Assembly: GCF_000024465.1 (NCBI RefSeq)
Contig: NC_014010.1
Coordinates: forward strand, 2,455,001-2,519,000
Source of the DNA: Candidatus Puniceispirillum marinum IMCC1322
Lineage (GTDB): Bacteria > Pseudomonadota > Alphaproteobacteria > Puniceispirillales > Puniceispirillaceae
DNA: 64,000 bases
Direction: 5' to 3'
Shown here: in pieces, positions 11,336 to 29,366 of the stretch
Layout: every line of letters starts with the position of its first letter
How positions within the stretch are numbered: the stretch's first letter is position 1
Made by a program: the position numbers and the translations under genes
The notes under the pieces: generated by a model
Told to the model about the DNA's origin: nothing
Seen by the model: only the letters and a program-made list of their open reading frames with translations
Databases searched by the model: none

Positions 11336-12097
11336 CTATAAATTACGGGCGAACCATACCACACGACCGATGATCTGTACCTCGTCAATCGTACGCTGAT
11401 AGTTTGTATAGGCCTGATTTTCCGAACAGATACGCAAAGTCTGGGGGCTGGTGCTGGGCACAAGCTCTATCCGCTTTGCCACAAGGCCAAGCCCATCATG
11501 CAAAATGAAAATACCTGGCGGGGTGGGGCGCGTTTGATCGGTATCCAGCATCACTGTATCGCCATGTTCAAGAACCGGTGCCATTGAATCGCCAGAAATA
11601 GTGATGAGTTTTAACGCGTCGGTTTTGCTTGGTGAGATTTTACGAAGCCATGAACGTGGAAAGGCAAGCGCCGCCGTTGCGGTGTCGGCAGACGCATCAA
11701 CAAGCGTACCGCCGCCTGCACTGGCGTGAATATCAAGAAATGGTACTGACGACATGGTCTGCAGACCAAGGGGCGCTGAATTTGTTGCCGTATGGGATAT
11801 ATCCGCATTACGCGCCCCTTTAGGCAAGCTATCATGGTGTGCCAATGTTGCCTGATCGACGCCTAGAATCGCAGCAAGCTGATAGCGAATGGCCTCGGGC
11901 AGATGGCGCGGTGAGCCCCGGTTCAGATATTGGTGTAAATAGGCGTCATTGCGGCCAATCGCGCGCGATGCCTGTTTTAGGGTCAACGGCGGTGTCTGCA
12001 TCGATAGCGCTACGCTTAAAGCCGTTCTGGCAGTGTCATTTGCCGGAATTTCGGCTAGATCATGCCGCATTTTATGTTTGGATTTAACCCTGTCCAT
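11336..12097 (-). CDS. S24 peptidase-domain phage-type repressor
   Basis: Transcriptional repressor of the cI/LexA-like S24 group, 253 residues. A helix-turn-helix region lies around residues 38-80 (LTLKQASRAIGRNDAYLHQY). The C-terminal self-cleavage domain has the Ser-Lys dyad: S171 in SGDSMAPVLEHGD and K208 in GLVAKRIE. The ASAGGG segment (A127-G128) corresponds to the usual start of the domain and a possible Ala-Gly cleavage point. Family knowledge predicts RecA-stimulated autocleavage after DNA damage. It is transcribed away from the structural genes. A palindromic site overlaps its start and another lies 32 bases upstream, which suggests autoregulation and control of the phage genes. Confidence 0.85.
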   Translation of the reverse strand: MDRVKSKHKMRHDLAEIPANDTARTALSVALSMQTPPLTLKQASRAIGRNDAYLHQYLNRGSPRHLPEAIRYQLAAILGVDQATLAHHDSLPKGARNADISHTATNSAPLGLQTMSSVPFLDIHASAGGGTLVDASADTATAALAFPRSWLRKISPSKTDALKLITISGDSMAPVLEHGDTVMLDTDQTRPTPPGIFILHDGLGLVAKRIELVPSTSPQTLRICSENQAYTNYQRTIDEVQIIGRVVWFARNL

Positions 12098-12111
12098 AGG
12101 AATAATCCTTT
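12096..12111. promoter_or_regulatory. Degenerate operator ATAGGA-N4-TCCTTT over repressor start
   Basis: ATAGGA at 12096-12101, spacer ATAA, TCCTTT at 12106-12111. It matches the perfect palindromes at 12129 and 12737 in 11 of 12 arm bases and overlaps the repressor start codon (12095-12097). It would suit negative autoregulation. Confidence 0.5.
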
Positions 12112-12128
12112 TTCGTTCTTTTCTTTAT

Positions 12129-12144
12129 ATAGGAAATATCCTAT
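12129..12144. promoter_or_regulatory. Palindromic operator ATAGGA-AATA-TCCTAT
   Basis: Perfect 6-bp inverted repeat with a 4-bp spacer in the divergent gap between the repressor and DUF6362 genes. The same arms and spacing recur at 12737-12752. A predicted binding site for the S24 repressor, by position and repetition. Confidence 0.7.
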
Positions 12145-12213
12145 CATGCTTTTCAGAAATTACAAGACTGTTTCCGTTACTGTGCCAACCATTAATCAGA
12201 TAGGAAATTTGCC

Positions 12214-12684
12214 ATGATACATACGCGTAAAGTACCCCCCCTCCGTACCAAAAGAAATAGCATAGATGAAAAAAGTCTGGCGCTTACACCAGCTGAGACG
12301 CTTTTGGCCAAACGGATGATGGCAGCGGCGATGACCTTGCGTGCGTTACCAAGGGATCAGCTGGCGATACCGAATGGCATTAGAAGTGCCTGGCCAGATA
12401 TGATACGCGAATCAGCCATTTTATACAGTAAAACAAGACGTTTATCGCAAGTACGCCCATCTCCACAGGCGATTGATTCGATGGATGTCATGTTGGCTTT
12501 GCTGTGGCATCTGGATTATGAAGCGCGTCAGCTTGTCTGGGCGCGTGCCAATAATATCCCATGGCGCATTCTGGTGGGGCGTTGCGGTAAAAGCCGATCT
12601 AGCCTTAATCGTGACTATAAAAAGGCTTTAGCCGCGCTCGAGACGATACAGAGTCAGCATGGCGTCGCCCAGTACCATGATTGA
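12214..12684 (+). CDS. DUF6362-like phage protein, possible small-terminase-like
   Basis: A 156-residue basic protein that resembles DUF6362 family members found beside phage terminase genes. Recognisable parts are MMAAAMTLRALPRDQLAIPN, RSAWPDMIRESA, SPQAIDSMDVMLALLW and the helix-turn-helix-like tail ARANNIPWRILVGRCGKSRS. DNA binding is likely. It could be a regulator or a packaging accessory protein. The start ATG 12214 has TAGGA eight bases upstream, which overlaps a half operator (ATAGGA at 12200). It is divergent from the repressor and is separated from the small terminase candidate by 123 bases that hold another operator. Confidence 0.65.
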   Translation: MIHTRKVPPLRTKRNSIDEKSLALTPAETLLAKRMMAAAMTLRALPRDQLAIPNGIRSAWPDMIRESAILYSKTRRLSQVRPSPQAIDSMDVMLALLWHLDYEARQLVWARANNIPWRILVGRCGKSRSSLNRDYKKALAALETIQSQHGVAQYHD

Positions 12685-12719
12685 TATGAACAAAGATGTA
12701 GGTTGATTGCGAAATCAGC

Positions 12720-12760
12720 TTGACAAATGACACAAAATAGGATAAATCCTATTATATACT
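12720..12760 (+). promoter_or_regulatory. Promoter with embedded repressor operator before terminase genes
   Basis: A consensus -35 hexamer TTGACA lies at 12720-12725. The perfect palindrome ATAGGA-TAAA-TCCTAT follows at 12737-12752 and would cover the spacer and -10 region (TAAATC at 17-bp spacing; TATACT further on at 12755). The structural genes start at 12808. A repressor bound here would block the whole packaging and structural operon. Confidence 0.65.
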
Positions 12761-12807
12761 GACAATCAATCCCTCCATATATGACATAGGCTAGGTTCAT
12801 TTCAAAA

Positions 12808-13245
12808 GTGACCCATGATGATTGCGAATGGCGACAAGCCTTTCTTGACTCCTTGCGGGTAACCGGAAATGTTAGCGCCGCCGCCCGGCTTGTTGGGAGA
12901 TCGCGTGCCTCTTTATACCGGATGCGGCGGGTCGATCCAGACTTTGCATCAGCCTGGCAAGATGCGCTTGAGGAAGCAGTTGACTGGCTGGAACTGGAAG
13001 CCTTGCGCCGCGCTGTTGAAGGCACCGAGGAAAACCGGTTTTCAAAGGGAGAGGTTGTTGGAACGATCACCCGCTATTCGGATAGCCTGTTGATGTTTTT
13101 GCTGAAAGCGCGGCGGCCCTGGCTGTATGACCGCCGGGTGCTACGAGGCGGACAGACCGATACGGACGAGGACAGTTTTGACGCATTACGATCAGCCCTT
13201 GAAGAAAAGCTGGATCGACTCGCTGATCCGCCTGCCAAAGACTGA
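12808..13245 (+). CDS. Terminase small subunit-like protein
   Basis: A 145-residue protein with an N-terminal helix-turn-helix: AFLDSLRVTGNVSAAARLVG and RSRASLYRMRRVDPDFASAW. This is typical of small terminases and of the gp1 protein at the head of GTA operons. A C-terminal acidic helix (SFDALRSALEEKLDRL) could contact the large subunit. The family role is to recognise DNA and regulate the motor; in GTAs this recognition has lost sequence specificity. The start is GTG with no strong ribosome site, so start confidence is low. The 3' end overlaps the large terminase frame. Confidence 0.72.
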   Translation: MTHDDCEWRQAFLDSLRVTGNVSAAARLVGRSRASLYRMRRVDPDFASAWQDALEEAVDWLELEALRRAVEGTEENRFSKGEVVGTITRYSDSLLMFLLKARRPWLYDRRVLRGGQTDTDEDSFDALRSALEEKLDRLADPPAKD

Positions 13246-14491
13246 CCGCACAGCCTTTATTGACGGGCTGGCTCCTGAGCAGATTAATCTGTTGTTATAT
13301 GAATGGCAGTTATGGGCGCGGCCAAAACAATTGCCACCAGCAGGTGATTGGCGTGTCTGGTTATTGATGGCAGGACGCGGCTTTGGCAAAACCCGGGCTG
13401 GCGCCGAATGGATAAGGTGGCTGGCACAAAGCGGGCGGGCGCGGCGTATTGCGCTGGTGGGTGAGACTTTTGATGATGCCCGTCAGGTCATGGTCGAGGG
13501 TGCGTCAGGCATTTTGTCGGTATGCCCGAACTGGGCACGGCCAGCATGGCGGGCAGGGCAAAGAACATTGATCTGGCCGTCAGGAACAATTGCACGTTGT
13601 TATTCGGCAGATGATCCCGAACAGCTTCGCGGCCCCGAATTTGATTATGGGTGGGCGGATGAGATTGCCAAATGGCGTTATCCAAGCGCATGGGACAATC
13701 TGATGCTGGCATTGCGTATTGGCAAAAGCCCACAATGTATAGCAACAACAACGCCGCGTCCGGTACGTTGGCTGGCCGATCTAGCGGCCGCTGAAGATAC
13801 GGTGCTTGTGCAAGGGGCTAGCCGCGAAAATGCGGCTAATCTGTCACCTGCTTTTATGGCAGCCATGCACCGGCGATTTGGTGATAGCTATCTGGCGCGT
13901 CAGGAGCTTGAGGGCATAATGATGTCAAATCTGCCCGATGCGTTATGGTGCCGAAATGATATTCTACGTCTGCATCGGCCGATGCCAAAGCGGCATCGAT
14001 TTATCCGGATTGTGATCGGTGTTGATCCGGCGATGGGCGGTGGTGATGAAACAGGCATCATAACCGCCGGCAAGGATCAGGATGGCCATATCTGGATTCT
14101 GGCCGATGATTCACTTCATGCGACGCCAGATAGGTGGGCAGTACAAATACAAAGGGTTTTTCGACAATGGCGCGCTGACAGTGTGATCGCCGAAATCAAT
14201 CAGGGTGGCAGTTTGATCCGTACGCTTTTGGCACAGGCAGGGTGTGCATTGCCGGTACGTGAAGTGCGGGCAATGCGGTCAAAATCAATTCGCGCCGAAC
14301 CAGTGGCTGCTGCCTATGCCCGCGGTGATGTTTCGCATGCCGGGCAATTCGGTGCACTTGAAGATCAGATGTGTGCCTGTGTGCCAGGCCAACGGCAAAC
14401 GCCGTCACCGGATCGGCTCGATGCGATGGTCTGGGCGGTTAATGCCCTGCTGGGCGGGATTGAAACCGCCACTAAAGAGATGGCGTTTTAA
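13127..14491 (+). CDS. Terminase large subunit (DNA packaging ATPase/nuclease)
   Basis: Motor that pumps DNA into the prohead. Walker A is AGRGFGKT (residues 82-89) and Walker B ends at D178-E179 in YGWADEIAKW. The C-terminal RNase H-like nuclease begins at VIGVDPAMGGGDETGI with its first catalytic Asp. Acidic residues later in the domain (around SVIAEINQGG and DRLDAMVWA) complete the site. The sequence from WIDSLIRLPK onward resembles GTA and related phage terminases. ATG 13127 gives the longest product, but a TTG at 13199 gives LKKSWIDSL, closer to the family N-terminus. It overlaps the small subunit gene, as in coupled translation. Confidence 0.92.
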   Translation: MTAGCYEADRPIRTRTVLTHYDQPLKKSWIDSLIRLPKTDRTAFIDGLAPEQINLLLYEWQLWARPKQLPPAGDWRVWLLMAGRGFGKTRAGAEWIRWLAQSGRARRIALVGETFDDARQVMVEGASGILSVCPNWARPAWRAGQRTLIWPSGTIARCYSADDPEQLRGPEFDYGWADEIAKWRYPSAWDNLMLALRIGKSPQCIATTTPRPVRWLADLAAAEDTVLVQGASRENAANLSPAFMAAMHRRFGDSYLARQELEGIMMSNLPDALWCRNDILRLHRPMPKRHRFIRIVIGVDPAMGGGDETGIITAGKDQDGHIWILADDSLHATPDRWAVQIQRVFRQWRADSVIAEINQGGSLIRTLLAQAGCALPVREVRAMRSKSIRAEPVAAAYARGDVSHAGQFGALEDQMCACVPGQRQTPSPDRLDAMVWAVNALLGGIETATKEMAF

Positions 14492-14536
14492 CGTTCTTCA
14501 CCTGTCGTGAGATACGACATTATTCGAGGATTACTG

Positions 14537-15886
14537 ATGACAGATAATGTGGCAACCCCGGGGATTGCGCATCGGGCGATGGCGGCCGAACTGGATTTGC
14601 TGGCCGATTTAATGGGCGGCACCTTGAGCATGCGCGCTGCTGGACAACGCTGGCTTCCGCGTGAAGCTGCCGAAAGCTGGACAGCATGGCGTGTCCGCTT
14701 GCAACGAACCGTCTTGTTTAACGGCTTGTCACGAACAGTGCAGGCATTGTCAGGACGCCCCTTTGCCCGCCCTGTGACGCTGGAGTCAGCGCATCCGGCT
14801 TTGCAAAAGTTGACCGAAAATTGTGACAAGGAAGGCACGTCGCTGAGTGATTTTGCCAAGCGGCTTCTGCAACGGTTACTGATCGATGGCATGGTGCATA
14901 TTCTGGTTGATCGACCAGTTGCGGGCGGTGCGCCTTATCTGGTCATGGTTACTGCCAGTCAGTTGATCGGAGCCACCCGAGATGATGACGGGCTTAGCGA
15001 AATCAGAATTGCCGAAACGCATATCAGGCGCGTTGGTCGCTTTGGTGAAGAAACCAGTCAAGCGGTTCGTGTGATTGGGCGTCATGCGTGGCAAGTATGG
15101 CACCCACGCGGTGATCTTGATAGTAGCGTTATTGGCACATGGCATGTCGCCACCGAAGGCCAGCATGATTATGGTCGCCCGCCGCTTATCACTTTGAATG
15201 TTGCCCCGTCAGGTTTCATGCAGTCGCGCCCACCCTTGATTGATCTGGCTTGGCTTAATCTTGCGCATTGGCAATCGGCTAGTGATCAGCGCCATATTCT
15301 GCATGTGGCACGGGTGCCTATTTTGTTTGGCCGGGCGTTGCAGGCAGCCGAAGGCGATATAGAAATCGGCCCTAACCGCCTGATAATGGCGGATGACCCG
15401 GCGGCTGATTTGCGTTTTGTCGAACATTCGGGTGCCGCCATTAACGCTGGCCGACAGGATCTTATCGATCTTGAGGATCGCATGGCTGTATTGGGTCTGG
15501 ATATGTTGCGCCGTCGCCCAGGCAACGAAACCGCGACAGGTCGTGCGATTGATGCGGCCGAAGCGCATGCCGCCCTGACAGGCGTGATCACAACCTTGCG
15601 CGATGGCTTGCAGGCGGCTTTTGAAATGGCAGCGGACTGGCTGGACGTGCCTGATGGTGCGGCCGGACAGATCCAGATTGCCCGTCATTTTCCCGTCAGC
15701 GATGACGCGGCTAATGAGGCCGACATTCTGTTAAGGGCACGGCTGGCTGGTGAAATCAGTCAGGAAGCCTTTCTGGCCGAAATCACCCGCCGCGGCATTT
15801 TGGCGGCAGGCGGTGGCATTTCCGCCCCGACACAGGCGTCAAACATCACGCCAAAAATCCGAAACCAAAGAGGTAATCATGAATGA
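14537..15886 (+). CDS. Phage portal protein, DUF4055 type
   Basis: Probably the dodecameric portal ring at the head vertex. It resembles DUF4055 family proteins: LPREAAESWTAWRVRLQRTV, FNGLSRTVQALSGRPFAR, RLLIDGMVHILVDRPV, and the late MAVLGLDMLRRRPGNETATG. Members occupy the portal slot after terminase in P22-coat-like phages. The 449-residue length fits. ATG 14537 is chosen because CGAGGA lies six bases upstream; a GTG at 14507 would add ten residues. The standard Rhodobacter GTA portal is a different (HK97-type) family. It overlaps the next gene by eight bases. Confidence 0.75.
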   Translation: MTDNVATPGIAHRAMAAELDLLADLMGGTLSMRAAGQRWLPREAAESWTAWRVRLQRTVLFNGLSRTVQALSGRPFARPVTLESAHPALQKLTENCDKEGTSLSDFAKRLLQRLLIDGMVHILVDRPVAGGAPYLVMVTASQLIGATRDDDGLSEIRIAETHIRRVGRFGEETSQAVRVIGRHAWQVWHPRGDLDSSVIGTWHVATEGQHDYGRPPLITLNVAPSGFMQSRPPLIDLAWLNLAHWQSASDQRHILHVARVPILFGRALQAAEGDIEIGPNRLIMADDPAADLRFVEHSGAAINAGRQDLIDLEDRMAVLGLDMLRRRPGNETATGRAIDAAEAHAALTGVITTLRDGLQAAFEMAADWLDVPDGAAGQIQIARHFPVSDDAANEADILLRARLAGEISQEAFLAEITRRGILAAGGGISAPTQASNITPKIRNQRGNHE

Positions 15887-16223
15887 TACAGACTTGAATA
15901 AAGAAACAGACAAGCACGATAATCTATCACCTCATGCCAGTATCCCAGATGCAGATCATGAGCCGCAAAGTGACAAACCGGATGCGGAAACTGACAAAGT
16001 TGCCAATGCGGCGGCGTCGATAACCGACAGCCCCAACATATCTGAAAAATCAGATAATCCGCATAATCCCGACACATCCATTTCCGACATGAAAGTTGGA
16101 ACTGGCGCGGGCATGTCGGATGCGGTGATGACGAATAGCATTAATGCGTCGGATGGCGATGCAATCAACAACAATCTGGAGGCGTTGGCCAGCGGCCGCA
16201 TGACTTTGCATATCGGCGCATAG
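15879..16223 (+). CDS. Small acidic protein, possible scaffold
   Basis: A 114-residue protein rich in Asp, Asn, Ser and Lys and very poor in hydrophobic residues (starts MNDTDLNKETDKHDNL). No family is recognised. Its place between portal and coat is where tailed phages encode scaffold or head-maturation protease. A charged, disordered sequence would suit a scaffold, and P22-like coats need a scaffold but no protease. The C-terminal LEALASGRMTLHIGA is the only ordered-looking part and could be a coat-binding helix. Function is inference from position. The start overlaps the portal stop and has AGAGGT upstream. Confidence 0.55.
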   Translation: MNDTDLNKETDKHDNLSPHASIPDADHEPQSDKPDAETDKVANAAASITDSPNISEKSDNPHNPDTSISDMKVGTGAGMSDAVMTNSINASDGDAINNNLEALASGRMTLHIGA

Positions 16224-16294
16224 CGCACTGACATTGTTATCGGAACAATCATTTCAAACTGCCTAGTAACCATTTCATTCGAAAGGAGAGACTT

Positions 16295-17479
16295 TTGCCA
16301 AACCAATTAGAAACCCTGATGCCACGTATTGTTGCGCGTGGTCTTTTACATTTTCGCGAACGTGCAATCTTGCCACGTCTTGTCAATAGCAGCTTTTCCA
16401 GCGATGCCGCCCGTCGGGGTGACGCCATCGATGTGCCGGTCAGCAGTCCGGTAGCGGTAAGTGACGTGACGCCGGGCAAGACATTTACGGGTAATATTCC
16501 TGATACATCGATTTCATCGGTGTCAATCACGCTGGATAATTGGAAACGCGCCGCATTTTATCTAACTGACGATGAAATGGCCAAAATCGAAAGCAGCGCC
16601 GATTTTATTCCGATGCAGATGGCCGAAGCGATCCATGCGCTGGCAGGAGCCGTGAATCAGTCAATCATTGATACGCATAAATTGATTGCCCATGGGCTTG
16701 GGTTGCCAGGTGAAATACCGTTTCAGCCGATGCCGTCCACCATTGCAGATGTCAAAGACTGGCATGGCGCCACTTGTGCCATTCAGGCACGACGTTTCCT
16801 GAACAAGGCAGCCGCTCCCAAAACCGGTCGTTTTGCCATTATTGACTATGATATGGAGGCTAATGCGCTTGGGCTGCCTCAATTCCATGACGCTGATAAA
16901 GCTGGCTCCACTAGCGTGCCGATGGAAGGTGAAATTGGCCGCAAATTTGGGATCGACTGGTTTTCTAGTGATCTATTGCCAAATGCGGGTAACAGCGTTG
17001 GTGAGGTCGCTATAACCCAAACCGCAAGAGCACAGGCGATGACAATTACAGTTAATGCCAGCCATAGCAACATCAATCCTGGTGATAGTTTCGTTATCAA
17101 GAATGATGCAGACCAAACCGTGCATCGTGTTAAATCGGTTGCTGCTTCCAGCAATTCTGCACATAGCGACATCACGCTTCATATGCCTATTGGGCAAGCA
17201 CTAAATACAAGTCACAAAGTCATTTTCAAGCCAACGCACAAGGTCGGGCTGGTTCTGCATCGTGACGCGGTTGCGCTGGCGATGCGGCCCTTATCTGCCG
17301 CAGGTCTTGAAAGCGGGCTGAATGGCCAGATCATGTCGGTGTCTGACCCGCAGACTGGACTATCGCTAAGGCTGGAGGTTACACGCCAATATAAACAGAC
17401 CATGTGGGAGTTTGATGTGCTTTGGGGTGTGGCTATGATGCGCCCCGAATTAGCCTGTGTGATTTACGGCGATGCGTGA
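16295..17479 (+). CDS. Major capsid protein, P22 coat-like
   Basis: Shell protein, 394 residues, similar in pattern to the P22 gene 5 coat group: GDAIDVPVSSPVAVSDVTPG, SVSITLDNWKRAAFYLTDDE, then an inserted beta-rich domain at about residues 240-310 (ITVNASHSNINPGDSFVIKN), and a C-terminal HRDAVALAMRPL. A small domain inserted in an HK97 fold is characteristic of P22-type coats. The start is TTG at 16295 with the strongest ribosome site of the cluster, AAGGAG at 16283-16288. No head protease gene is present, in line with this coat type. RcGTA instead uses a protease-processed HK97-type capsid. Confidence 0.78.
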   Translation: MPNQLETLMPRIVARGLLHFRERAILPRLVNSSFSSDAARRGDAIDVPVSSPVAVSDVTPGKTFTGNIPDTSISSVSITLDNWKRAAFYLTDDEMAKIESSADFIPMQMAEAIHALAGAVNQSIIDTHKLIAHGLGLPGEIPFQPMPSTIADVKDWHGATCAIQARRFLNKAAAPKTGRFAIIDYDMEANALGLPQFHDADKAGSTSVPMEGEIGRKFGIDWFSSDLLPNAGNSVGEVAITQTARAQAMTITVNASHSNINPGDSFVIKNDADQTVHRVKSVAASSNSAHSDITLHMPIGQALNTSHKVIFKPTHKVGLVLHRDAVALAMRPLSAAGLESGLNGQIMSVSDPQTGLSLRLEVTRQYKQTMWEFDVLWGVAMMRPELACVIYGDA

Positions 17480-17708
17480 AGCCGGTGTCCATAAAGCAGA
17501 TGCGGTTATATCTGATAAGGCTGTTATCATTCAGCATTCCCGAACCGAACAGCAGATGGTGGTGCCGCTAGCCGATTACCAGCTTTATGCCGCTGCCCGT
17601 TTCCGCAATTGGCGTTTGTCTGAACGCAATAATGGCTTTCGGCCGCCAACAACCATTTCAGAGTTTCTGTATGCAAATGATGGTGCTGTGCAGGAGCGGG
17701 TAAGATGA
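17472..17708 (+). CDS. Small phage protein of unknown function after coat gene
   Basis: A 78-residue protein, not recognised. It is mildly basic and contains VVPLADYQLYAAARFRNWR. It begins inside the last codons of the coat gene (8-base overlap) and its stop overlaps the following adaptor start (ATGA), so it is translated as part of the operon. Position suggests a head-associated or connector role. Confidence 0.55.
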   Translation: MREAGVHKADAVISDKAVIIQHSRTEQQMVVPLADYQLYAAARFRNWRLSERNNGFRPPTTISEFLYANDGAVQERVR

Positions 17709-18163
17709 GTGCCGCCTATCTTGATGTTGTGGCGGCTGATCGCTGGTGCCAGATACGTGCCTATGGTGACTGGGCGGATGCTAACAGCATGATCAAGGCG
17801 GCTGCTTTGGTAAAGGCGGCTGATCTTATTGATACGCATTTTACCTTTCGGGGGTATCGGCAAGCAGTCGATCAACTGCGTGCCTGGCCACGTACCGGCA
17901 TTAAGGATAAGGCAGGACGTACCATCAGCGGAATCCCGTCTGCAGTGAAAGATGCCAATTGCGTTCTAGCGCTTGCCTTGATTGAGGATGCTGGGGGCGT
18001 CGCCGAACTGCTTGGTCTTCGTGGGGCGGTTCTGTCTGAGCGCATAGGGTCAGTCGCCGTAAGCTATGACGCTAGCAGATCGTCGTCATCGCAAAGCCGG
18101 ATCAAGGCCTTGCTATCACCATTTCTGGAAACAACCAGCTCTTCAAGGATTAAGCGAACATGA
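17705..18163 (+). CDS. Head-tail adaptor, DnaT-like phage family
   Basis: A 152-residue protein with the signature of the phage family often labelled DnaT-like ssDNA-binding protein: ALVKAADLIDTHFTFRGYR, QLRAWPRTGIKDKAGR, GIPSAVKDANCVLALAL. In P22-coat-type phages this gene follows the capsid and acts as the first connector ring (adaptor) rather than in replication. It overlaps both neighbours by four bases. It is not a replication protein here, judging by its place in a structural operon. Confidence 0.72.
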   Translation: MSAAYLDVVAADRWCQIRAYGDWADANSMIKAAALVKAADLIDTHFTFRGYRQAVDQLRAWPRTGIKDKAGRTISGIPSAVKDANCVLALALIEDAGGVAELLGLRGAVLSERIGSVAVSYDASRSSSSQSRIKALLSPFLETTSSSRIKRT

Positions 18164-18489
18164 TACCGATTCATGACAAGCGTCTGCGCGAAGTTCTGTC
18201 ACGTTATGGACGGAAAGGATTATTAAGGGCAGGCGCCGACCCATCTGGACAAGACAACACCATTTATGTGCTGATCAATCGTTTGCGGGCGGTTGAGCAT
18301 GAAAATCTGCCCGCTGATATGCGTGAGGCCGAAGCGTTGTTGCTGGTGGCTGACGCCACTGTTCTGCCCAAGCAAGGTGATGCGGTCATAATCGAAAATG
18401 AACGCTGGCGGCTAAGCAGTGCCTTGCGGATCGGGGAGGCTGGATCACGTCTGTTTCAGGCGCAACTATCCAGTGCTGACATACAGTAA
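18160..18489 (+). CDS. Probable head-closure (stopper) protein
   Basis: A 109-residue protein without a confidently recognised family. The pattern is an N-terminal helix (IHDKRLREVLSRYGRKGLLR) followed by a beta-rich half (TVLPKQGDAVIIENERWRLS). This resembles small beta-barrel stopper proteins that sit under the adaptor. The order adaptor - this gene - tail terminator supports that role. Start and stop overlap the neighbours. Confidence 0.5.
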   Translation: MIPIHDKRLREVLSRYGRKGLLRAGADPSGQDNTIYVLINRLRAVEHENLPADMREAEALLLVADATVLPKQGDAVIIENERWRLSSALRIGEAGSRLFQAQLSSADIQ

Positions 18490-18884
18490 TGAGCAGGACT
18501 GTCCGTGACGAATTGCAGGCGGCTGTGACCGCATGCTGGCAGGATCGAAGCCCGCTTATATGGGAAAATGCCCAGGCTGATGATCTATCATTTATGGCAG
18601 ATGGATATCTGAAGTTTGCGGTCTCGCTATTGGGGGCTTCGGAAATGTTCATGGCATCAGATCTGGTATCCGAGGGACAGATGTTCCTTACGCTGGCGGT
18701 GCCGCTGGGCAAAGGTATGGTGCAAGCTGATAGTGGCGTTGCCCAGCTTGATACATGCCTTTCAAACAAACAATTTGGCAAGGTGCGCACCACCAATCTG
18801 CGGGTTCAGCCAGCCTATGCGTCAGCCGGATTTTGGCTCACAGACATCGAACTTGATTTTCTGCTCTGGGAAGGAACAGCGTAA
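18489..18884 (+). CDS. Probable tail terminator protein (DUF4128-like)
   Basis: A 131-residue protein. It resembles DUF4128/tail-terminator proteins in length, in the N-terminal VRDELQAAVTACWQD helix and in the late AYASAGFWLTDIELDF strand. It directly precedes the tail tube gene, the usual site for the terminator ring. Stop and start overlaps of one base with both neighbours indicate coupled translation. The family call is moderate. Confidence 0.55.
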   Translation: MSRTVRDELQAAVTACWQDRSPLIWENAQADDLSFMADGYLKFAVSLLGASEMFMASDLVSEGQMFLTLAVPLGKGMVQADSGVAQLDTCLSNKQFGKVRTTNLRVQPAYASAGFWLTDIELDFLLWEGTA

Positions 18885-21616: not shown

Positions 21617-22404
21617 ATAAGTCTGCGAGCATGTTTGGTCAGGATATTGACGCGGCAATCATGGCATATGCCAATGATAATGCGCATGAAGAAATCTGCG
21701 GTGTTGTTCGCAAGGGTTCAGGCGGTCATTTTTTCCAGCCGCTACCCAATCAGGCGGTTGACCGCACCCTGTGTTTTGAAATGTCCGAAAAGGCTGTGTT
21801 TTCTGGCGATAATGCCTGCGCCATTGTTCATTCGCATCCAAAAGGCCCGGCGTTTCCGTCACGGCACGACATGGTTCAGCAACAGGCTAGCCAGCTTCCC
21901 TGGGCGATCACCATTCCCACAGGCCAAACACATGCAGGTGTGTTCTGGTTTGGCGGTGCCCCAGCACCATTGATGACGCGTGGCTATAGGCATGGTGTGA
22001 CAGATTGCTATGCGCTGATCCGCGACTGGTTTGCCAGCCAGCGCCAGATCAGCTTGCCTGATTATCCGCGTGCATGGGAATGGTGGATCGGCACTGGTGC
22101 CGGCTCTGGAGACGATGATAGTGATGGCAGGGGCAGACGTCATCAGGCCAATCTGTATCGTGATAATTTTGCCGCATATGGTTTCCGCGCGCTCGAAGAT
22201 GATGTGCCGCGTGAAATAGGGGATGTTGCGATGATGCGTATTCTGGGTCCGGTGATTAATCATGCGGCGGTCTGGGTCGGTCAGGGGTTGATCCTGCATC
22301 ATCTTGCCGGACGCCACGGCTATGCGCCGCACAGGCTACCGCGCCAAGAACCAGCCGAACGCTGGTATCGCTATATTGATTTCTGGGTGCGCTATGGGGG
22401 TTAA
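21613..22404 (+). CDS. Tail tip assembly protein K-like: JAMM peptidase + NlpC/P60
   Basis: Two-domain lambda gpK-type protein, 263 residues from ATG 21613. The N-terminal JAMM domain has E26/E27, H73, H75, S83 and D86 in HSHPKGPAFPSRHD, so the zinc site is intact. The C-terminal NlpC/P60 domain has C132 in YRHGVTDCYALIRDW and H216 in INHAAVWVG. Family role: tail-tip assembly and local peptidoglycan cutting during DNA entry. The frame is open 28 codons further upstream, but ATG 21613 overlaps the L stop in the usual way. Confidence 0.87.
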   Translation: MNKSASMFGQDIDAAIMAYANDNAHEEICGVVRKGSGGHFFQPLPNQAVDRTLCFEMSEKAVFSGDNACAIVHSHPKGPAFPSRHDMVQQQASQLPWAITIPTGQTHAGVFWFGGAPAPLMTRGYRHGVTDCYALIRDWFASQRQISLPDYPRAWEWWIGTGAGSGDDDSDGRGRRHQANLYRDNFAAYGFRALEDDVPREIGDVAMMRILGPVINHAAVWVGQGLILHHLAGRHGYAPHRLPRQEPAERWYRYIDFWVRYGG

Positions 22405-23026
22405 AACGATTTATCTACATGGTGCCTTGGCACAGTTTGGCCAGTTATTCAAACTGCATATAGACAGCCCGCATGAAGCCATAAGCGCACTGGAAAATCA
22501 ATGTGACGGCTTTGCCGCGGCCATAAGGCAAGGACGGTTTTCAGTCGCAACAGGATTGGCGGATCGCCTGACCCCGCTTGATGGGGCAAATATGTTTGCG
22601 CCTTTTGCCGAACCCGACCTGCATATCTGGCCTGATATAGCTGGGCATGGCAAAGGCGATGGCAAAATGCTGCTAGGGCTGACGTTGCTGGGTCTATCAT
22701 TTATCCCCGGCGTTCAGGCAGGCATAGGAAGCCAGTTTTCACGATTGGGGACAACGCTTGGCGGTGCGGGCGTTGGTGAGGCGGCTGGATTTTTTGGCAG
22801 CAAACTGCTGGGTGGGGCGGCGACTTGGCTGATCCTGTCATCGGCAAGCGACAGTCTGGCACCACAGATCCATGCGCCAGCTGGTACCGTTGAATCAGAT
22901 GTGATAGCCGCCTCGGCATCAAGTGCCGAGGGCACACCGATCCCGCTTGTTTATGGCATGGTCAGGGTGACGCAACCGCCAGTTATTTCTGCCGGATTAA
23001 GCGTCGCTATCGAAAAACTAACATAA
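22394..23026 (+). CDS. Tail assembly protein I-like
   Basis: Lambda gpI-type tail tip assembly protein, 210 residues. It starts MGVKTIYLHGALAQFGQLF, contains the ubiquitin-like N-terminal domain followed by SPHEAISALENQCDGFAAAI, a glycine-rich membrane-like middle (MLLGLTLLGLSFIPGVQAG) and the conserved end AEGTPIPLVYGMVRV. The ATG at 22394 overlaps the end of K by 11 bases. It is required in related phages for assembling J into the tip. Confidence 0.8.
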   Translation: MGVKTIYLHGALAQFGQLFKLHIDSPHEAISALENQCDGFAAAIRQGRFSVATGLADRLTPLDGANMFAPFAEPDLHIWPDIAGHGKGDGKMLLGLTLLGLSFIPGVQAGIGSQFSRLGTTLGGAGVGEAAGFFGSKLLGGAATWLILSSASDSLAPQIHAPAGTVESDVIAASASSAEGTPIPLVYGMVRVTQPPVISAGLSVAIEKLT

Positions 23027-23045
23027 TCGAAACATCAGGATATCC

Positions 23046-26000
23046 ATGGTCATGAATGATGCAACAATGATTAGCGGCCGCGGGGGAAAATCTGGTGGCG
23101 GTGGCGGTGACTGGCAGGTGCCACAGGTTACCGAGGTAGCTGACAGTATCCGGTCTTCAGGTACGGCGCGGGTGCAATTTCTGCTATCAGCAGGGCCAAT
23201 TGGCGGGCTGCGTGATGGTGCCAAATCGATCTTTCTTGACGATGTGCCATTGCAATCGCCAGATGGTACCGCGAATTTTGAAGGTGTTGGCTGGATGCAG
23301 ACCTACGGCACCCCGGATCAGAATCCAGTATCTATGCCCGGCTTTAACGTTGTCGAACAGGTGCAAAATACAGGCTGGATCATGCGCGCTGGATTGGCAC
23401 GGGTGGCCAGCCGGGCACGCGTTGATGCGGCGCGTCTGACATTGCGCTTTGGCCGCGGGCTTGTGCATCGGCGCGGGCATGTGATTACCGGTGCGGCAGT
23501 GACCTTGCGGATTGATGTCTGGCATAGTGGTCAATGGCACGAGGCCGTGCGTAAGACGGTGAGTGAAAAACAGTCCGGTCCTTTTGAAATACAAATGCAG
23601 GTCGGTTTCAGCGCGGTTGACGATGATATAACGGCGGTGCGTAAATTCCGGCTTGTACGGATGACAGCCAACAGCAATAGCCGCGATTTGATCAATGATG
23701 TGACCTGTACAAGCATCACCTGGCTGACATGGGATGCTCTGCGTTATCCCGGTATGGCGACAGTCGCGTTGAGCCTTGATGCGCGGGGCTTTGCTGGTCG
23801 CCCACCTGTAGTCAGTTTTGACACAAAGGGACGATTGCTTGCCGTGCCCCGAAATTATGATCCGGAAAGGCGGCATTATAACGGGATATGGGATGGGCAG
23901 TTTAAAACCGCATGGTCAGATAATCCGGCATGGGTGATATATGATATTCTGACGGCGCGTGACTGGGGACTGGGGCTGCCGCCTGAAAGTGTTGATAAAT
24001 TTGATCTCTATACGATTGCGCGCTATTGCGATGCGCCAGTCAGCGATGATGATGACAATCCGCGCTTTCGGTTCAATGCCGTTATCAAGACACGTAAATC
24101 GGCGGCTGTGCTGATGGCCGAATTATGTGCGGCGATCCATGTGCTGTTTTACTGGTCAGGCGGGCGGCTTCGGTTTCGTGCTGACAAACCAACAGCGCCC
24201 AGTATTCTGGTCACATCTGCGAATGTGATTAATGGGGATTTTGTGTATCATGGGCCAGCAAGACAGGCGGAAATCAGCCATGCCTTTGTGACTTTCCGCG
24301 AGGCGGCAAACGGCGGGCAGATCAGTGTCGAAAGCGCGGTTGATCAAGATAGTTTTCAGCGTTTTGGTTATCGCCCCTATGAAGTGTCCTTGCTGGGTTG
24401 CACTAACCGCGCCGAAGCCCAGCGTCATGCACGGTGGCTGATCGAAACAGCGCGAAGCCAGCGTCATGCGATCAGCTATCGTGCCAGCCTTGATCATTTT
24501 GCCGAGGCGCCGGTGCGGCCAGGCGATGTCGTGCTAATTGCCGATCCAGCGCTTAATGATAGCCCAATCATTCAGGCGCGGATCAGCGCCACACCATTGA
24601 CGCCTGCGGGCAAAGCGGCATGGCGACGCAACAAGCCGGATATTGGCAAGTCGGCGCGGCTGGTACCGCTTGATCTTGCTGATGATAGGGGGCTGGCTAA
24701 CATGCCGGATCAGGCGGTTATGTGCCTATATGAAGCTGGCCGTAAAAAAAGCACCGGACGCGATGTGCACAGCCCGATTGCCCATCAAAGAGGGCATTTA
24801 TATATCGATGCAGTGTCTATGTCCGCGCTATTGGTGCTAGCCACCGATGCGCCGCGTCCACGCGCGCATACGCCCCTTGTCATGCGCCCGATATCAGCAG
24901 ATGCAAGCACAAACAACCATGTTGAAGGCAAACCCTATCGTGTTGTCTCGGTGCGCGAGGCCGAAAACCATATCGTTGAAATTGGCGGGATACTGCATGA
25001 TCCGGATAAATATGCACGGATCGATGCTGCTGTAGATTTGCCAGCCTTGCCGCGTTTACCGCTACCTGACTTTTCAGCGCCTCTGCCAGCCGCCACGCAA
25101 ATCCGACTTGAGGTGGCGGAAATTCGGCGCAGTACGGGACTGGCACAACAGCTCTATATCACATGGGAAAGCCCGCATGATGCCCGCCTGTCTGGCTGGC
25201 ATGTGACAGCAACGGCGCCTGATGGCACGGTGCAGAGCGCCCAAACCAGTGCCCCTGCGGTGATGTTCGATGTGATAGGTGATGATGGTGTGGATGCGAA
25301 TTTATCTGCTAGTGACAGACAGGCATGGCGGTTTTCGATTGCGCCAATCAGCTGGACAAGCCGTCGCGGGGTGCCTGTGCATCATCATGCGCCTTTGCCC
25401 GTCCCCGCACCAACAGAGGCAGTGGCGGCACCATTGGGATTGCGGGCAATCGCTGGTCAGGGGTTGGTTCAATTGCGCTGGACGGCGGTGGCGGATAGCG
25501 GCTTGGCACATTATGAGATATGGGCACAGCAAGGACGTGATAGCGAAACCAAGCTGGGTCAAACGACAGCCACAGCATGGACGGCGGCAGGGTTGACGCC
25601 GGGTCGGTCTGTCCATTTCCGTCTGCGCTATATCCGGCATACAGGCCAGATATCGGCATTTTCAACACCCGTGACAGCCACCGCATTAGCGCCCGTGGCA
25701 GGGCCAAAGGGTGATCGGGGGCTACAAGGCCCGCAAGGGGCAAGGGGCGCTAGAGGTATTCAGGGGCCAAAAGGGCCAAAGGGGCCACAGGGCGAAGGTG
25801 TTGATGATAACGGGATTATTGTTGCCCCGCGCATCATCATGCCGACGCAAAAGGGAACAGGTTTTCATACCTTTACGCAAGATCGCAAAATCAGTGCACC
25901 AAAATCACCCGCCAGGGGCGGCATGTTCACCTTTGGCCCGCTTCGGGTTGCGCCAGATGCCTTTTCCAATACGCTGTCTGATACAAATGCCCAGATTCTG

Positions 26001-26555
26001 ACCTTTGATGACCCGCACGGTGCTAACCGCCAAGATAATGAACAGGGCTATTTCAGCCGGTTCTGGTCACGCGCACCTAAATTAACTTTATCCAGCTTTT
26101 ACCGCCCTGATGCGGGTGCCCAGCCTTGGGGCGATATTTTGCGGGGGTTCCGTTGTCCGGTCGAAATCTTTATCGGCATGCCGGATCGTGGCGGTGTGAT
26201 GGTTGCCCGGGCGCACCGTATCCGGTCAGGGCTGTTTGATGCGACGGCCTATCATGATGCCGAAACCGAACATTATGCCACCTATCGGCAGTTTGATGGC
26301 ATTGTAAGCGTCAAACTGGCGCGTGTGCATGTGCCTAGACCTAGTGGCGCATCGCTTAATGCGCGGGCTGGCTATACCGCCGAATATCGCCTTGCTATCG
26401 ATATGGCACCGCATCTGGTTATCCCGCGTGGTCGATCACATCAGCCGATTTATATCCGGCTTCGGCTATCGGTCACCGGAACCGGACGGTTGCGATCTGG
26501 CGGCTTTACGCATTTATATGATAATTTCGCGCTGGCAGGATCAACATTGCGATAA
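23046..26555 (+). CDS. Host specificity protein J-like with collagen-like tract
   Basis: Central tail-tip fibre of 1169 residues (lambda gpJ has 1132). The N-terminal gpJ core is clear: GGKSGGGGGDWQVPQVTEVA, IGGLRDGAKSIFLDDVPLQ, and AWVIYDILTARDWGLGLPPE near residue 300. Fibronectin III-like domains lie at about 675-880. Residues 886-918 form eleven Gly-X-Y triplets (GPKGDRGLQGPQ and on), a collagen-like trimer stalk. A C-terminal receptor-binding region of about 250 residues of unknown fold follows. It closes the structural operon. The fused stalk plus head suggests the particle still recognises a cell-surface receptor. Confidence 0.87.
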   Translation: MVMNDATMISGRGGKSGGGGGDWQVPQVTEVADSIRSSGTARVQFLLSAGPIGGLRDGAKSIFLDDVPLQSPDGTANFEGVGWMQTYGTPDQNPVSMPGFNVVEQVQNTGWIMRAGLARVASRARVDAARLTLRFGRGLVHRRGHVITGAAVTLRIDVWHSGQWHEAVRKTVSEKQSGPFEIQMQVGFSAVDDDITAVRKFRLVRMTANSNSRDLINDVTCTSITWLTWDALRYPGMATVALSLDARGFAGRPPVVSFDTKGRLLAVPRNYDPERRHYNGIWDGQFKTAWSDNPAWVIYDILTARDWGLGLPPESVDKFDLYTIARYCDAPVSDDDDNPRFRFNAVIKTRKSAAVLMAELCAAIHVLFYWSGGRLRFRADKPTAPSILVTSANVINGDFVYHGPARQAEISHAFVTFREAANGGQISVESAVDQDSFQRFGYRPYEVSLLGCTNRAEAQRHARWLIETARSQRHAISYRASLDHFAEAPVRPGDVVLIADPALNDSPIIQARISATPLTPAGKAAWRRNKPDIGKSARLVPLDLADDRGLANMPDQAVMCLYEAGRKKSTGRDVHSPIAHQRGHLYIDAVSMSALLVLATDAPRPRAHTPLVMRPISADASTNNHVEGKPYRVVSVREAENHIVEIGGILHDPDKYARIDAAVDLPALPRLPLPDFSAPLPAATQIRLEVAEIRRSTGLAQQLYITWESPHDARLSGWHVTATAPDGTVQSAQTSAPAVMFDVIGDDGVDANLSASDRQAWRFSIAPISWTSRRGVPVHHHAPLPVPAPTEAVAAPLGLRAIAGQGLVQLRWTAVADSGLAHYEIWAQQGRDSETKLGQTTATAWTAAGLTPGRSVHFRLRYIRHTGQISAFSTPVTATALAPVAGPKGDRGLQGPQGARGARGIQGPKGPKGPQGEGVDDNGIIVAPRIIMPTQKGTGFHTFTQDRKISAPKSPARGGMFTFGPLRVAPDAFSNTLSDTNAQILTFDDPHGANRQDNEQGYFSRFWSRAPKLTLSSFYRPDAGAQPWGDILRGFRCPVEIFIGMPDRGGVMVARAHRIRSGLFDATAYHDAETEHYATYRQFDGIVSVKLARVHVPRPSGASLNARAGYTAEYRLAIDMAPHLVIPRGRSHQPIYIRLRLSVTGTGRLRSGGFTHLYDNFALAGSTLR
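25701..25799 (+). repeat. Collagen-like Gly-X-Y coding repeat
   Basis: Eleven consecutive Gly-X-Y codon triplets inside the J-like gene (residues 886-918), many of them GPK, GPQ or GAR. In phage fibres such tracts form rigid triple helices between the tail and the receptor-binding head. Confidence 0.85.
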
Positions 26556-26936: not shown

Positions 26937-27986
26937 ATGAAAAAACTATTAATGACAACGACAGCCTTGATTGCGCTGGGCGGTGTTACATCGGCACTAG
27001 CTGATCTTAGCATCAGCGGTAATGCCCGCTGGACCTATACAACATGGACAGACAAGACTCTTGATGATGCCGGTTCAGGTGCTAATAACACATCAATGGG
27101 CGAGGTTTTACAACTTTGGTTCAATGCCGATGAAACGGCTGATAGCGGCATGACCTATGGTGCCGCCGCACGTTTGCGGCAGGTAAAGGATGGTTTTGAC
27201 CGTAACTGGATCTATGTTGGCGATGATTGGGGCAAGGTCTCTCTTGGTCGTCAATTCTCACCTTTTACGACCGGATCGCTTGGCGCGAACTGGCGCGGTA
27301 CAATTTCGGGCGTCCAGCCTGGTGTGGGTGATGTTACCGGTAATGCCGGTCTGATTACCACATCTTGGGTTAACCCATCGGGCACTGCACCAAAGTTCAT
27401 CTATAATTCGCCTAATATCGCTGGTATTACTCTCGGATTTTCGATGGCTGATGGTGGAACAAAAGTAGCAACGGCTGATGATGGAACAAAGAGTGGCGGT
27501 AAAGCCGATTCAACCGCTATGCGGGTGAATTACAGCACCGATATCATGGATGGTACAGGCTTGACGCTTGGTTATGCAACCGAGACCACCAAAGCTGTGG
27601 ATGGTGCGGCTGATTCAGCTAAGACAGACCATTCTGAAGTTGGTGCGGCTGTGACCAGCGGCGATCTAACCGCGTCAGTGATCCAGCTTGGCAAATCGCA
27701 AAAGCCCAATGTTGGTGCAACCACTTCGGATCAAAAGGCAACTGAGCTTGAAGTCGCTTATGCCATGTCGGATGCTTTGACCGTGAATGTGATCATGCTC
27801 AATTCAAAGGAAAACAAAGGTACGAAAAAAGGTGACAAGTTTTCATCTACCGAGCTTGGTGCCAAATACACTATCGCACCTGGTCTGACAGCTAACCTTA
27901 TTTATACCAAAGCCAGCCACACGCCAAATATGGGTGCAAAGAATACTGGTAATTCAACCCAACTTCAGATGCGGGTGAACTTCTAA
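26937..27986 (+). CDS. Outer-membrane porin
   Basis: General diffusion porin of the alphaproteobacterial Gram-negative porin family. MKKLLMTTTALIALGGVTSALA is the signal peptide, followed by the first strand DLSISGNARWTYT. The family motif YVGDDWGKVSLGRQFSPF is near residues 88-105. The chain alternates short amphipathic strands and ends in a C-terminal aromatic strand (LQMRVNF) with the terminal Phe used for BAM recognition. At 349 residues it is a typical trimeric porin. It lies between the tail-tip operon and the lysis cassette and has its own terminator. Lambdoid phages (Lc of PA-2, nmpC of DLP12) also carry porins next to lysis genes, so this may belong to the element. Confidence 0.88.
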   Translation: MKKLLMTTTALIALGGVTSALADLSISGNARWTYTTWTDKTLDDAGSGANNTSMGEVLQLWFNADETADSGMTYGAAARLRQVKDGFDRNWIYVGDDWGKVSLGRQFSPFTTGSLGANWRGTISGVQPGVGDVTGNAGLITTSWVNPSGTAPKFIYNSPNIAGITLGFSMADGGTKVATADDGTKSGGKADSTAMRVNYSTDIMDGTGLTLGYATETTKAVDGAADSAKTDHSEVGAAVTSGDLTASVIQLGKSQKPNVGATTSDQKATELEVAYAMSDALTVNVIMLNSKENKGTKKGDKFSSTELGAKYTIAPGLTANLIYTKASHTPNMGAKNTGNSTQLQMRVNF

Positions 27987-28020
27987 TTATCTGAAATTGG
28001 ATAGATTCATATCATTAAGG

Positions 28021-28048
28021 AAAGAGGGGTCTTTGACCCCTCTTTTTG
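28021..28048 (+). terminator. Rho-independent terminator after porin
   Basis: Stem GAGGGGTC (28024-28031) and GACCCCTC (28035-28042) with loop TTT, extended by AAA/TTT pairing and followed by a T-rich run. It ends the porin transcript, so the downstream lysis genes need their own promoter or readthrough. Confidence 0.88.
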
Positions 28049-28117
28049 TGTTTTATTGACCTCAAATATATCCGCGTGACTAGCTGATACCCCCATAACC
28101 CCTGACCGGACTTGCCC

Positions 28118-28432
28118 ATGCCGCCATCGCGTTCATCCTTGCCGCCATCGCCATTGGTGCCGACTGCGGACAAGCTGGAAACGGGCAAGGCAGAACCCGA
28201 TCATGACACCCAAATGCAAGCGGCCATTGATGCCGTAATCACCAGAAGGCTGGCCGATCTGGGGCTGGATGATGCCGATGCCCGTGCTGATCTGGCCGAT
28301 CTGCGCGCCGGACTAGCCAGCTTGCGGAAATTGCGCTTTGGCCTGATCCAGAAATGTGTTGGCTGGTTTGTGCAGGCCGCCTTGATGCTCATGGGGCTGG
28401 GGATATTGGTGATCCTGTCGCATCAGCAATAA
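28118..28432 (+). CDS. DUF6127-like small membrane protein of the lysis cassette
   Basis: A 104-residue protein with a Pro/Ser-rich disordered N-terminus, a charged helical middle (ADARADLADLRAGLASLRKL) and one C-terminal membrane segment (AALMLMGLGILVIL). This layout matches DUF6127 proteins found with GTA and phage holin genes. The function is unknown; a holin partner or spanin-like role is possible. ATG 28118 is chosen over the upstream TTG 28112. It lies 130 bases after the porin stop and 54 bases before the holin frame. Confidence 0.6.
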   Translation: MPPSRSSLPPSPLVPTADKLETGKAEPDHDTQMQAAIDAVITRRLADLGLDDADARADLADLRAGLASLRKLRFGLIQKCVGWFVQAALMLMGLGILVILSHQQ

Positions 28433-28486
28433 TCACGCCCGCCCTTTGCCCCGAAACACATATTCATGACAGTTGAAAGGAAGATG

Positions 28487-28918
28487 ATGCCACTTCTTGA
28501 TATGATGACGCGCATATTCGCGCCGCTTGCCAGTCTGATCGACGATCTGCATACCTCGGATGAAGAACGCGATGCCGCGCGCATGGCGCTGGTCGCCGCG
28601 CAGAATCAGGCGTTGGCGCTGACCCTCGATCTGGAACGTGAAAAGCTGGCGGCGCGCGCCAGCCTGATCGCCGCCGAAATTGGTGGGCAGTCATGGTTGC
28701 AACGAAACTGGCGTCCGATCACGATGCTGAGCTTTCTGGCATTGGTGATCCTTGATTCGTTTGGCCTACTGGTATTTCGCCTGTCGGATGAGGCATGGTT
28801 GCTGTTGCAGATCGGTCTTGGCGGTTATGTGGTGGGGCGTAGCGCCGAAAAGATAGTGCCGTCAATCAGGCCAACTGGTCATAGGGATCAAGGTGTGCAA
28901 GGTGTGCATCATGACTAA
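28487..28918 (+). CDS. GTA-type holin (3TM holin family)
   Basis: A 143-residue protein. An N-terminal charged helix (HTSDEERDAARMALVAAQNQ) is followed by the family hallmark GGQSWLQRNWRPITM at about 66-80, then hydrophobic segments at about 80-97 and 102-117. This corresponds to the Pfam family named after the GTA holin of three TMs. It would form membrane lesions that let the endolysin out. ATG 28487 is preferred (AGGA five bases before), though ATG 28466 and 28484 are in frame. Its end overlaps the endolysin start by eight bases. Confidence 0.78.
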   Translation: MPLLDMMTRIFAPLASLIDDLHTSDEERDAARMALVAAQNQALALTLDLEREKLAARASLIAAEIGGQSWLQRNWRPITMLSFLALVILDSFGLLVFRLSDEAWLLLQIGLGGYVVGRSAEKIVPSIRPTGHRDQGVQGVHHD

Positions 28919-29366
28919 ATCAAAGTCTTTGCCAGCGATAGGCCAATCTGACCGCGATCTGGCCGCCATGCTCGAACGGCATGAAGGGCGGCGGGCGCAT
29001 CCCTATCGCGATCAGGTCGGTAAGCTGACCATCGGGGTGGGGCGCAATCTGGATGATCGCGGCCTGAGCGCTGAGGAAATCGACATGCTGCTGGCACATG
29101 ATATCGCTATTGCCCGCGCCGGATGCCGGGCATTATTCCCCGCTTTTGATGGCTTTGGCCGGAAACGTCAGGCGGCGTTGATATCGATGGCTTTCAATCT
29201 GGGGCAAACGCGCCTAGCCTGTTTCCGGCGTATGCGCGCCGCGATCAATGATGGTAACTGGATAGGTGCCAGCCATGAGGCGCTGGATAGCTATTGGGCA
29301 GGTCAGGTTGGCCACCGCGCACAGGAGATAGCGACACTGTTGCGATCATCCAGCAAGCCCGGATAA
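28911..29366 (+). CDS. GH24 endolysin (phage-type lysozyme)
   Basis: Muramidase of the T4 lysozyme type (GH24), 151 residues. The catalytic triad E25-D34-T40 in ERHEGRRAHPYRDQVGKLT keeps the exact T4 spacing of +9 and +15. IGVGRNL and the C-terminal helix ALISMAFNLGQTRLACFRRM are family features. There is no signal peptide or signal-arrest segment, so release depends on the holin. ATG 28911 is preferred over the GTG at 28893. It is the last gene before the convergent polyprenyl synthase and probably the right border of the element. Confidence 0.88.
   Translation: MTKSKSLPAIGQSDRDLAAMLERHEGRRAHPYRDQVGKLTIGVGRNLDDRGLSAEEIDMLLAHDIAIARAGCRALFPAFDGFGRKRQAALISMAFNLGQTRLACFRRMRAAINDGNWIGASHEALDSYWAGQVGHRAQEIATLLRSSSKPG

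Follow-up and report, generated by a model that had tools for sequence, protein, structure and literature searches.

The analysed stretch of DNA (64,000 nucleotides, G000:C1:2455001-2519000; here "the window", in whose positions all coordinates are given) comes from the closed 2,753,527-bp genome (G000) of Candidatus Puniceispirillum marinum IMCC1322, a SAR116 bacterium of the order Puniceispirillales. At positions 11336-29366 it carries a cluster of phage-type particle genes of about 18 kb, which we examined as a candidate gene transfer agent (GTA). GTAs are known from few lineages, and three independent origins have been classified (PMC9662315). In the open-access literature, a coverage that leaves out most subscription journals, we found no described GTA in SAR116 and no described prophage in IMCC1322.

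A complete particle-gene cluster between rlmD and ispB

Profile searches (Pfam and PHROGs) resolved the cluster into repressor, packaging, head, connector, tail, and lysis modules, with two weak assignments (Hc1 and the tail terminator). Reading frames are intact throughout, and the core genes mostly overlap or abut. Every module listed in a first-pass annotation of the window, from repressor through endolysin, was recovered at its place with an intact frame by Pfam/PHROG matches; its inventory lacked the DUF6362 gene in the repressor-TerS gap and the porin inside the cluster, and it recorded the tape measure without remarking on its length of 199 aa. Compared by sequence with the PDB, the coat protein and TerL had weak relatives at most, or none. 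The features are as follows.

9951-11297, minus strand: left host flank, rlmD-like methyltransferase (PF05958)
11336-12097, minus strand: cluster repressor, helix-turn-helix (HTH) plus S24 (LexA/cI-like) (PF00717, E 2e-11; phrog_4, E 1e-27; alignment)
12097-12110, no strand: degenerate operator copy at the repressor start (pattern match, 2 mismatches)
12129-12144, no strand: operator O1 (ATAGGAAATATCCTAT) in the repressor/DUF6362 gap (one of two genome-wide sites; kept in relatives)
12214-12684, plus strand: DUF6362 protein, HTH-like, candidate regulator (PF19889, E 3e-21)
12720-12751, plus strand: predicted structural-operon promoter (TTGACA at 12720-12725; O2 at 12737-12751 over the predicted -10; alignment of 13 SAR116 loci)
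12727-12755, plus strand: second promoter-like match (promoter scan)
12808-13245, plus strand: small terminase, TerS (phrog_4044, E 7e-32)
13127-14491, plus strand: large terminase, TerL (PF03237, PF17289)
14507-15886, plus strand: portal, DUF4055 (PF13264, E 2e-45; phrog_145, E 8e-94)
15879-16223, plus strand: short acidic scaffold-like protein, 114 aa (lies between the portal and coat genes; C-terminal part kept in L010, L014, L212, L214, L217)
16295-17479, plus strand: P22-like major coat protein, no adjoining protease gene (PF11651; phrog_283, E 4e-59)
17472-17708, plus strand: 78-aa head protein (conserved in relatives)
17705-18163, plus strand: head-tail adaptor Ad1 (PF20557; phrog_477, E 3e-26)
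18160-18489, plus strand: head closure Hc1-like protein (phrog_161, E 0.009, weak; dN/dS 0.05)
18489-18884, plus strand: tail terminator-like protein (PF13554, E 0.015, weak)
18884-19909, plus strand: tail tube, Phage_tube_2 (PF18906, E 6e-25)
19909-20508, plus strand: very short tape measure, 199 aa (phrog_1716, C-terminus only)
20505-20834, plus strand: gpM-like minor tail protein (PF05939, E 1e-15)
20867-21616, plus strand: gpL-like minor tail protein (PF05100, E 8e-26)
21529-22404, plus strand: gpK-like tail tip peptidase, JAB plus NlpC/P60 (PF14464, PF00877)
22304-23026, plus strand: gpI-like tail assembly protein (phrog_32, E 2e-20)
23046-26555, plus strand: gpJ-like tail tip attachment protein with FN3 and collagen-like repeats (PF13550, PF24801, PF00041, PF01391)
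26937-27986, plus strand: moron-like porin (PF13609, E 3e-25; own terminator at 28019-28047)
28112-28432, plus strand: small membrane protein, possible lysis accessory (phrog_10540, E 8e-8)
28466-28918, plus strand: holin, GTA_holin_3TM family (PF11351, E 2e-8; phrog_3427, E 1e-33)
28893-29366, plus strand: endolysin, phage lysozyme (PF00959, E 2e-11; phrog_7)
29389-30462, minus strand: right host flank, ispB-like polyprenyl synthase (matched in 82 of 101 relatives)

The window is free of tyrosine integrases; the closest ones in the genome are ~210 kb downstream and ~350 kb upstream. Profile searches found no replication gene among the cluster proteins. The window also holds no tRNA and no Rfam RNA. 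Flanking direct repeats longer than 13 nt were absent, and att repeats at the cluster ends were rejected, as the longest shared word (13 nt) lies away from the junctions. By gene content, three related clusters (G010, G061, and G067) likewise lack integration and replication genes. The absence of integrase, replication gene, tRNA, and flanking repeat claimed in the first-pass annotation holds in the window searches, and for the integrase in the genome search too; the integrase or att sites just outside the window that would have spoken against its reading were not found. The hallmark of a temperate phage, whether integrase with att sites or a replication module, is missing here.

The same locus in related genomes

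A search for the portal in 136 genomes of the order matched seven, including the present one, plus one chance match. In all seven, to the extent that the contigs reach, rlmD/GATase and ispB-methyltransferase bracket the cluster or pieces of it; the first-pass annotation had proposed looking for it at this locus in sister genomes, and it is there in two families. The cluster is largely complete in G000 and G010 (family f1) and in G061 and G067 (family f2), with the integrity of G010 less sure as its tube was read in two parts and its tape-measure frame has 137 aa. In G001 the tail genes and part of the coat are gone, and G064 and G019 hold pieces at the rlmD/ispB locus; both G001 and G019 have retained head genes and lost tail genes. 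Copies at 50-70% protein identity are intact and syntenic across the two families.

Remnants occupy 23 of the 30 f1/f2 rlmD/GATase-ispB intervals that were readable in full and lack the full cluster, with none in the other seven. Their content varies, comprising pieces of the repressor, DUF6362, terS, terL, or endolysin. In family f3, rlmD stands directly beside ispB. That most relatives have remnants at this site implies that the cluster was present ancestrally; the pattern is that of an ancestral cluster lost many times rather than of repeated arrival.

Inheritance and selection

A tree of TerL, portal, and coat resolved as ((G061,G067),(G010,(G000,(L013,(G001,L011))))), with every inner branch starred. 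A tree of eight host proteins gave the same relations for the five genomes that it shares with the cluster tree, an agreement which, resting on five taxa, is modest evidence alone. A GTA cluster might also spread by homologous recombination at its conserved flanks, making inheritance only partly vertical: particles of this type would carry their own locus like any other, and identical flanks would ease replacement. We judge this the least likely of the alternatives considered, as the cluster tree does not conflict with the host tree, although the power of a five-genome comparison is low.

Measured against L014, the closest environmental copy (68-88% protein identity), dN/dS was 0.09 for the portal, 0.11 for the coat, 0.05 for Hc1, 0.13 for Ad1, 0.26 for both the tube fragment and the terminator, and 0.40 for the 78-aa protein; comparisons with other environmental copies gave mostly 0.08-0.5 per gene pair. 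The structural genes, for which the first-pass annotation had suggested this calculation, are by these ratios (0.05-0.4) under purifying selection.

These values also bear on whether the cluster might be a domesticated particle with another job, namely a killing particle or a programmed-lysis device that transfers no DNA. The cluster does appear host-maintained and carries its own lysis genes. However, terminase, portal, and coat are retained, with portal and coat under the constraint given above, and would be needless in a tail-only bacteriocin. In G001 and G019, moreover, it is the head genes that have outlasted the tail genes, the opposite of what a tailocin would show. A tailocin identity is thus ruled out, and other such jobs seem very unlikely.

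A repressor and a conserved operator pair

The palindrome core AGGAWWWWTCCT occurs at O1, between the repressor and DUF6362 genes, and at O2 (12737-12751), between DUF6362 and terS. With one mismatch allowed, these are the only two sites in the 2.75-Mb genome. With up to two mismatches, 8 matches fall in the window, where 0.94 are expected; seven of these lie at 12097-12751. Nearly all f1 copies spanning the region have both O1 and O2, and the f2 copies G061 and G064 have O2; the exact core was not seen in G067. Among O2 copies from 13 loci of the two families, 12 have TTGACA upstream, with the operator placed over the expected -10. Since a generic promoter scan found sites no more numerous than in shuffled sequence, it is this conservation that supports the promoter.

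The repressor's autoprotease dyad, Ser (GDSM) and Lys (VAKR), is kept in the window, G001, G018, and L013. The S24 catalytic residues are lost in f2 and in the aligned f4 repressors, so self-cleavage cannot be the trigger everywhere. Caulobacter RogA, which represses gafYZ at a separate locus and targets GGAA-N4-TTCC (PMC9632790), resembles the cluster repressor in domain layout (HTH plus S24), in GTA control as proposed here, and in its half-site (GGAA/TTCC); it too has lost the catalytic residues, as have the f2 and f4 repressors. In contrast to RogA, the present operator, AGGAWWWWTCCT, is confined in this genome to the cluster itself. An identification of DUF6362 with GafY/GafZ was unsupported, the family having no match in the Caulobacter control genome.

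In the f4 genomes, a repressor homologue stands alone between rlmD and ispB (loci L096-L103), without particle genes; it may be a relic that has taken on a new role, or else the host's original regulator. The idea that the repressor is purely a host gene was considered but not adopted: the lone f4 copy fits, but elsewhere the repressor travels with DUF6362-terS-terL. The same AGGAWWWWTCCT operator also lies just upstream of a related repressor in other families (L134/L175 in G279, L136 in G147), and no cluster was seen near that repressor in these two genomes.

The conserved operators and promoter are relevant to another explanation, that of a defective prophage, recent or old, stripped of its mobility genes and decaying neutrally. 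Patchy presence, the truncated remnants in many relatives, and the loss of tail genes and part of the coat in G001 would all suit it. Yet under neutral decay over a span of two families no intact copies are expected, while syntenic ones persist at 50-70% identity in both; dN/dS is low, and the cluster tree follows the hosts. We therefore give this explanation little credence.

Environmental copies

Portal relatives in IMG/VR reach 60-87% identity. Those at ≥60% identity lie on contigs of at most 11.6 kb, whereas portals at ≤40% identity occur on contigs of up to 76 kb; no long IMG/VR contig carries a relative at ≥60%. All five environmental contigs that extend past the repressor (L013, L208, L210, L212, and L215) run into rlmD. 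The near environmental relatives look like chromosome fragments filed as viruses.

A living temperate phage or satellite, integrating at one att site with help in trans, would account for the phage-like S24 repressor, lysis genes, and porin cargo, and for related clusters with long tape measures near rlmD in other families. It is a poor fit to the missing integrase, att repeat, and replication gene, to the short contigs of near relatives, to the congruent trees, and to the remnants that imply ancestral presence, and we regard it as improbable.

Comparison with known GTAs and phages

Like the present cluster, the Rhodobacter GTA (RcGTA, Rhodogtaviriformidae) is integrase-less and vertically inherited (PMC9662315, PMC7296036). 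In both, TerL falls in one broad group (46% identity with the RcGTA-like TerL of MW091529.1), and they share an NlpC/P60 tail peptidase, a holin of the GTA_holin_3TM family, and a very short tape measure (216 aa in RcGTA, by residue counts in PMC7296036, versus 199 aa). RcGTA differs in having an HK97-type major capsid protein (MCP) and prohead protease, where the cluster has a P22-like coat and short scaffold without a protease gene, and in its DUF2460/DUF2163/megatron tail tip, in place of which the cluster has one of lambda type (M-L-K-I-J); no DUF2460/DUF2163/GTA_TIM baseplate was found among the cluster proteins. The DUF4055 portal and the repressor and lysis genes inside the cluster are further differences. 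The capsid and protease of the RcGTA-like record L198 (MW091529.1) have no match in the cluster, the real matches being just TerL (46%) and the tape measure (32% over 151 aa). RcGTA itself is absent from this genome, which lacks the marker GTA_TIM, as do 60 of 61 genomes.

In a TerL tree, SAR116 groups with clusters of families f100, f111, and f138 and not with phages or RcGTA-like TerL (support 93/96); a tree joining SAR116 to one RcGTA-like TerL was marginally rejected (p-AU 0.036). The first-pass annotation's contrast with RcGTA in coat, portal, and tail tip stands, and the independent domestication that it proposed is supported by these non-homologous capsid, portal, and tail-tip genes, with the TerL tree marginal. 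The Bartonella GTA (Bartogtaviriformidae) and Brachyspira BhGTA/VSH-1 are likewise independent domestications of tailed phages, set apart by their description (PMC9662315) in having other hosts and distinct TerL clades.

Among phages, the coat is 37% identical to that of Siphoviridae ctIqW946 and the portal 37% identical to that of Mesyanzhinovviridae phage Mallos. Both have a similar order of portal, scaffold, coat, connectors, and tube, but their genomes measure 56-59 kb and include replication or DNA-metabolism genes. The cluster tape measure, 190-200 aa in seven aligned relatives against 829 aa in Mallos, matches ~1000-aa phage tape measures solely over their last ~100 aa at the C-terminus. 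An AlphaFold model of it had low confidence (pLDDT 60), with the helix-loop-helix layout alone usable.

Two side observations concern RcGTA-like elements. L198, an 18,183-bp sewage record, is deposited as 'Bacteriophage sp. 103231', although its gene order and content are of RcGTA type (protease, MCP, 181-aa tape measure, peptidase, glycoside hydrolase). The sole GTA_TIM match in the genomes of the order searched (L104-L105, G076:C85) lies on a contig that also bears a DUF6362 gene; it may belong to a different prophage or to an RcGTA-like element, or reflect a binning error.

Porin and lysis genes

Copies from both f1 and f2 carry the porin between gpJ and the lysis genes (L026:7370-8536, L027:10190-11383, L285:12534-13163). 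In the window it has a strong terminator of its own, and the genome encodes a 36% paralogue at another site; the porin may serve as receptor, exclusion factor, or cargo. Three copies encode a small protein with a P-loop-like motif (e.g., GTRPGAGVSTK) after gpJ (L023:11317-12225, L026:6926-7312, L027:11677-12210), which had no Pfam match in two copies tested and was not seen in the window. In f2, the lysozyme is replaced by a non-orthologous M15 peptidase, with the GTA_holin_3TM holin retained in G067, which suggests that lysis itself is selected.

A wider family outside the order

The same head, repressor-DUF6362-terS-terL-portal-coat, occurs in G242 and G512 (f111), G231 (f100), and G269/G369/G450 (f138). 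The cluster is thus older and wider than the first-pass annotation had guessed, with counterparts in other alphaproteobacterial families. Read frame by frame, G231, G242, and G512 have clusters of ~18 kb with a different tail tip, tape measures that frame length and position put at 1033-1173 aa, and no integrase among the proteins tested. rlmD adjoins the repressor in G231 and G242, with matching DUF3108-type genes at the far end; in G450, rlmD and ispB-methyltransferase flank the cluster, as they do in SAR116, with extra genes interposed. Hydantoinase genes adjoin the repressor in several of the clusters.

One old integration explains this wider family best. The f1, f2, f100, f111, and f138 clusters, with a remnant in f125, could stem from a single integration beside rlmD before these families diverged, giving a further, class-wide GTA family of greater age than the SAR116 order, with a tail that shrank in SAR116 and repeated parallel loss, a scenario that we find plausible but hold somewhat short of probable. 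Alternatively, the site may be one preferred by a group of phages.

In another family (f45; L158-L163 in G302, G398, and G474), a P22-like coat and related portal accompany an RcGTA-type tail, which as read through in G302 comprises DUF2460, NlpC/P60, Rcc01698_C, and a 238-aa frame at the tape-measure position. The coat and portal also occur in two further species of the genus. This cluster is perhaps another, chimeric GTA.

Interpretation

That the cluster is a host-maintained, vertically inherited particle cluster seems to us very likely. It is quite probably also a previously undescribed SAR116 GTA, ancient and domesticated independently of the Rhodobacter GTA. Each GTA feature on which sequence can speak is present, namely complete particle genes, no mobility genes, vertical inheritance, and purifying selection. 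Locus, trees, dN/dS, and the lack of mobility genes all favor the candidate GTA of the first-pass annotation, and from them we infer its function. On the best reading, a minority of SAR116 have kept the GTA intact, and in the others it is decaying.

Several points weigh on the other side. The whole cluster is kept in just 4 of 43 high-quality genomes of the order, so selection for it has often been lost. An S24 repressor is also normal in temperate phages, and the porin resembles a phage moron. With a P22-type T=7 head, capacity could exceed 18 kb, so the particle may not be too small for the cluster's own genes.

Sequence shows the anatomy of the cluster, its locus and inheritance, the purifying selection on its genes, and its operators and promoter; from repressor binding through induction to packaged DNA and transfer, a GTA of this kind might work as follows. 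The S24 repressor, bound to O1 at the repressor/DUF6362 promoter and to O2 at the terS/structural promoter, would keep the cluster silent. DNA damage or another stress would lift repression, through self-cleavage in lineages with the Ser/Lys dyad, and DUF6362 possibly aids activation. A P22-type scaffolded capsid with a DUF4055 portal and a very short siphovirus-type tail would then be assembled, and TerS/TerL would load the heads with producer DNA, probably by unspecific headful packaging. Holin and endolysin would lyse the producer, and the lambda-type tip with its NlpC/P60 peptidase would deliver the DNA to relatives.

Thanks to the unique operator pair, induction can be tested directly in the cultured strain. 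The environmental copies carry a warning that short chromosomal GTA fragments may be filed as viruses, with SAR116-type pieces sitting in IMG/VR. If our interpretation is right, the cluster would represent a further independent origin of GTAs, one that differs in head type, has a self-contained switch, and belongs to an ocean clade of very high abundance. Its many sister genomes at successive steps of loss would allow one to ask directly why GTAs are kept or lost, and how much DNA is moved by this route in the sea.

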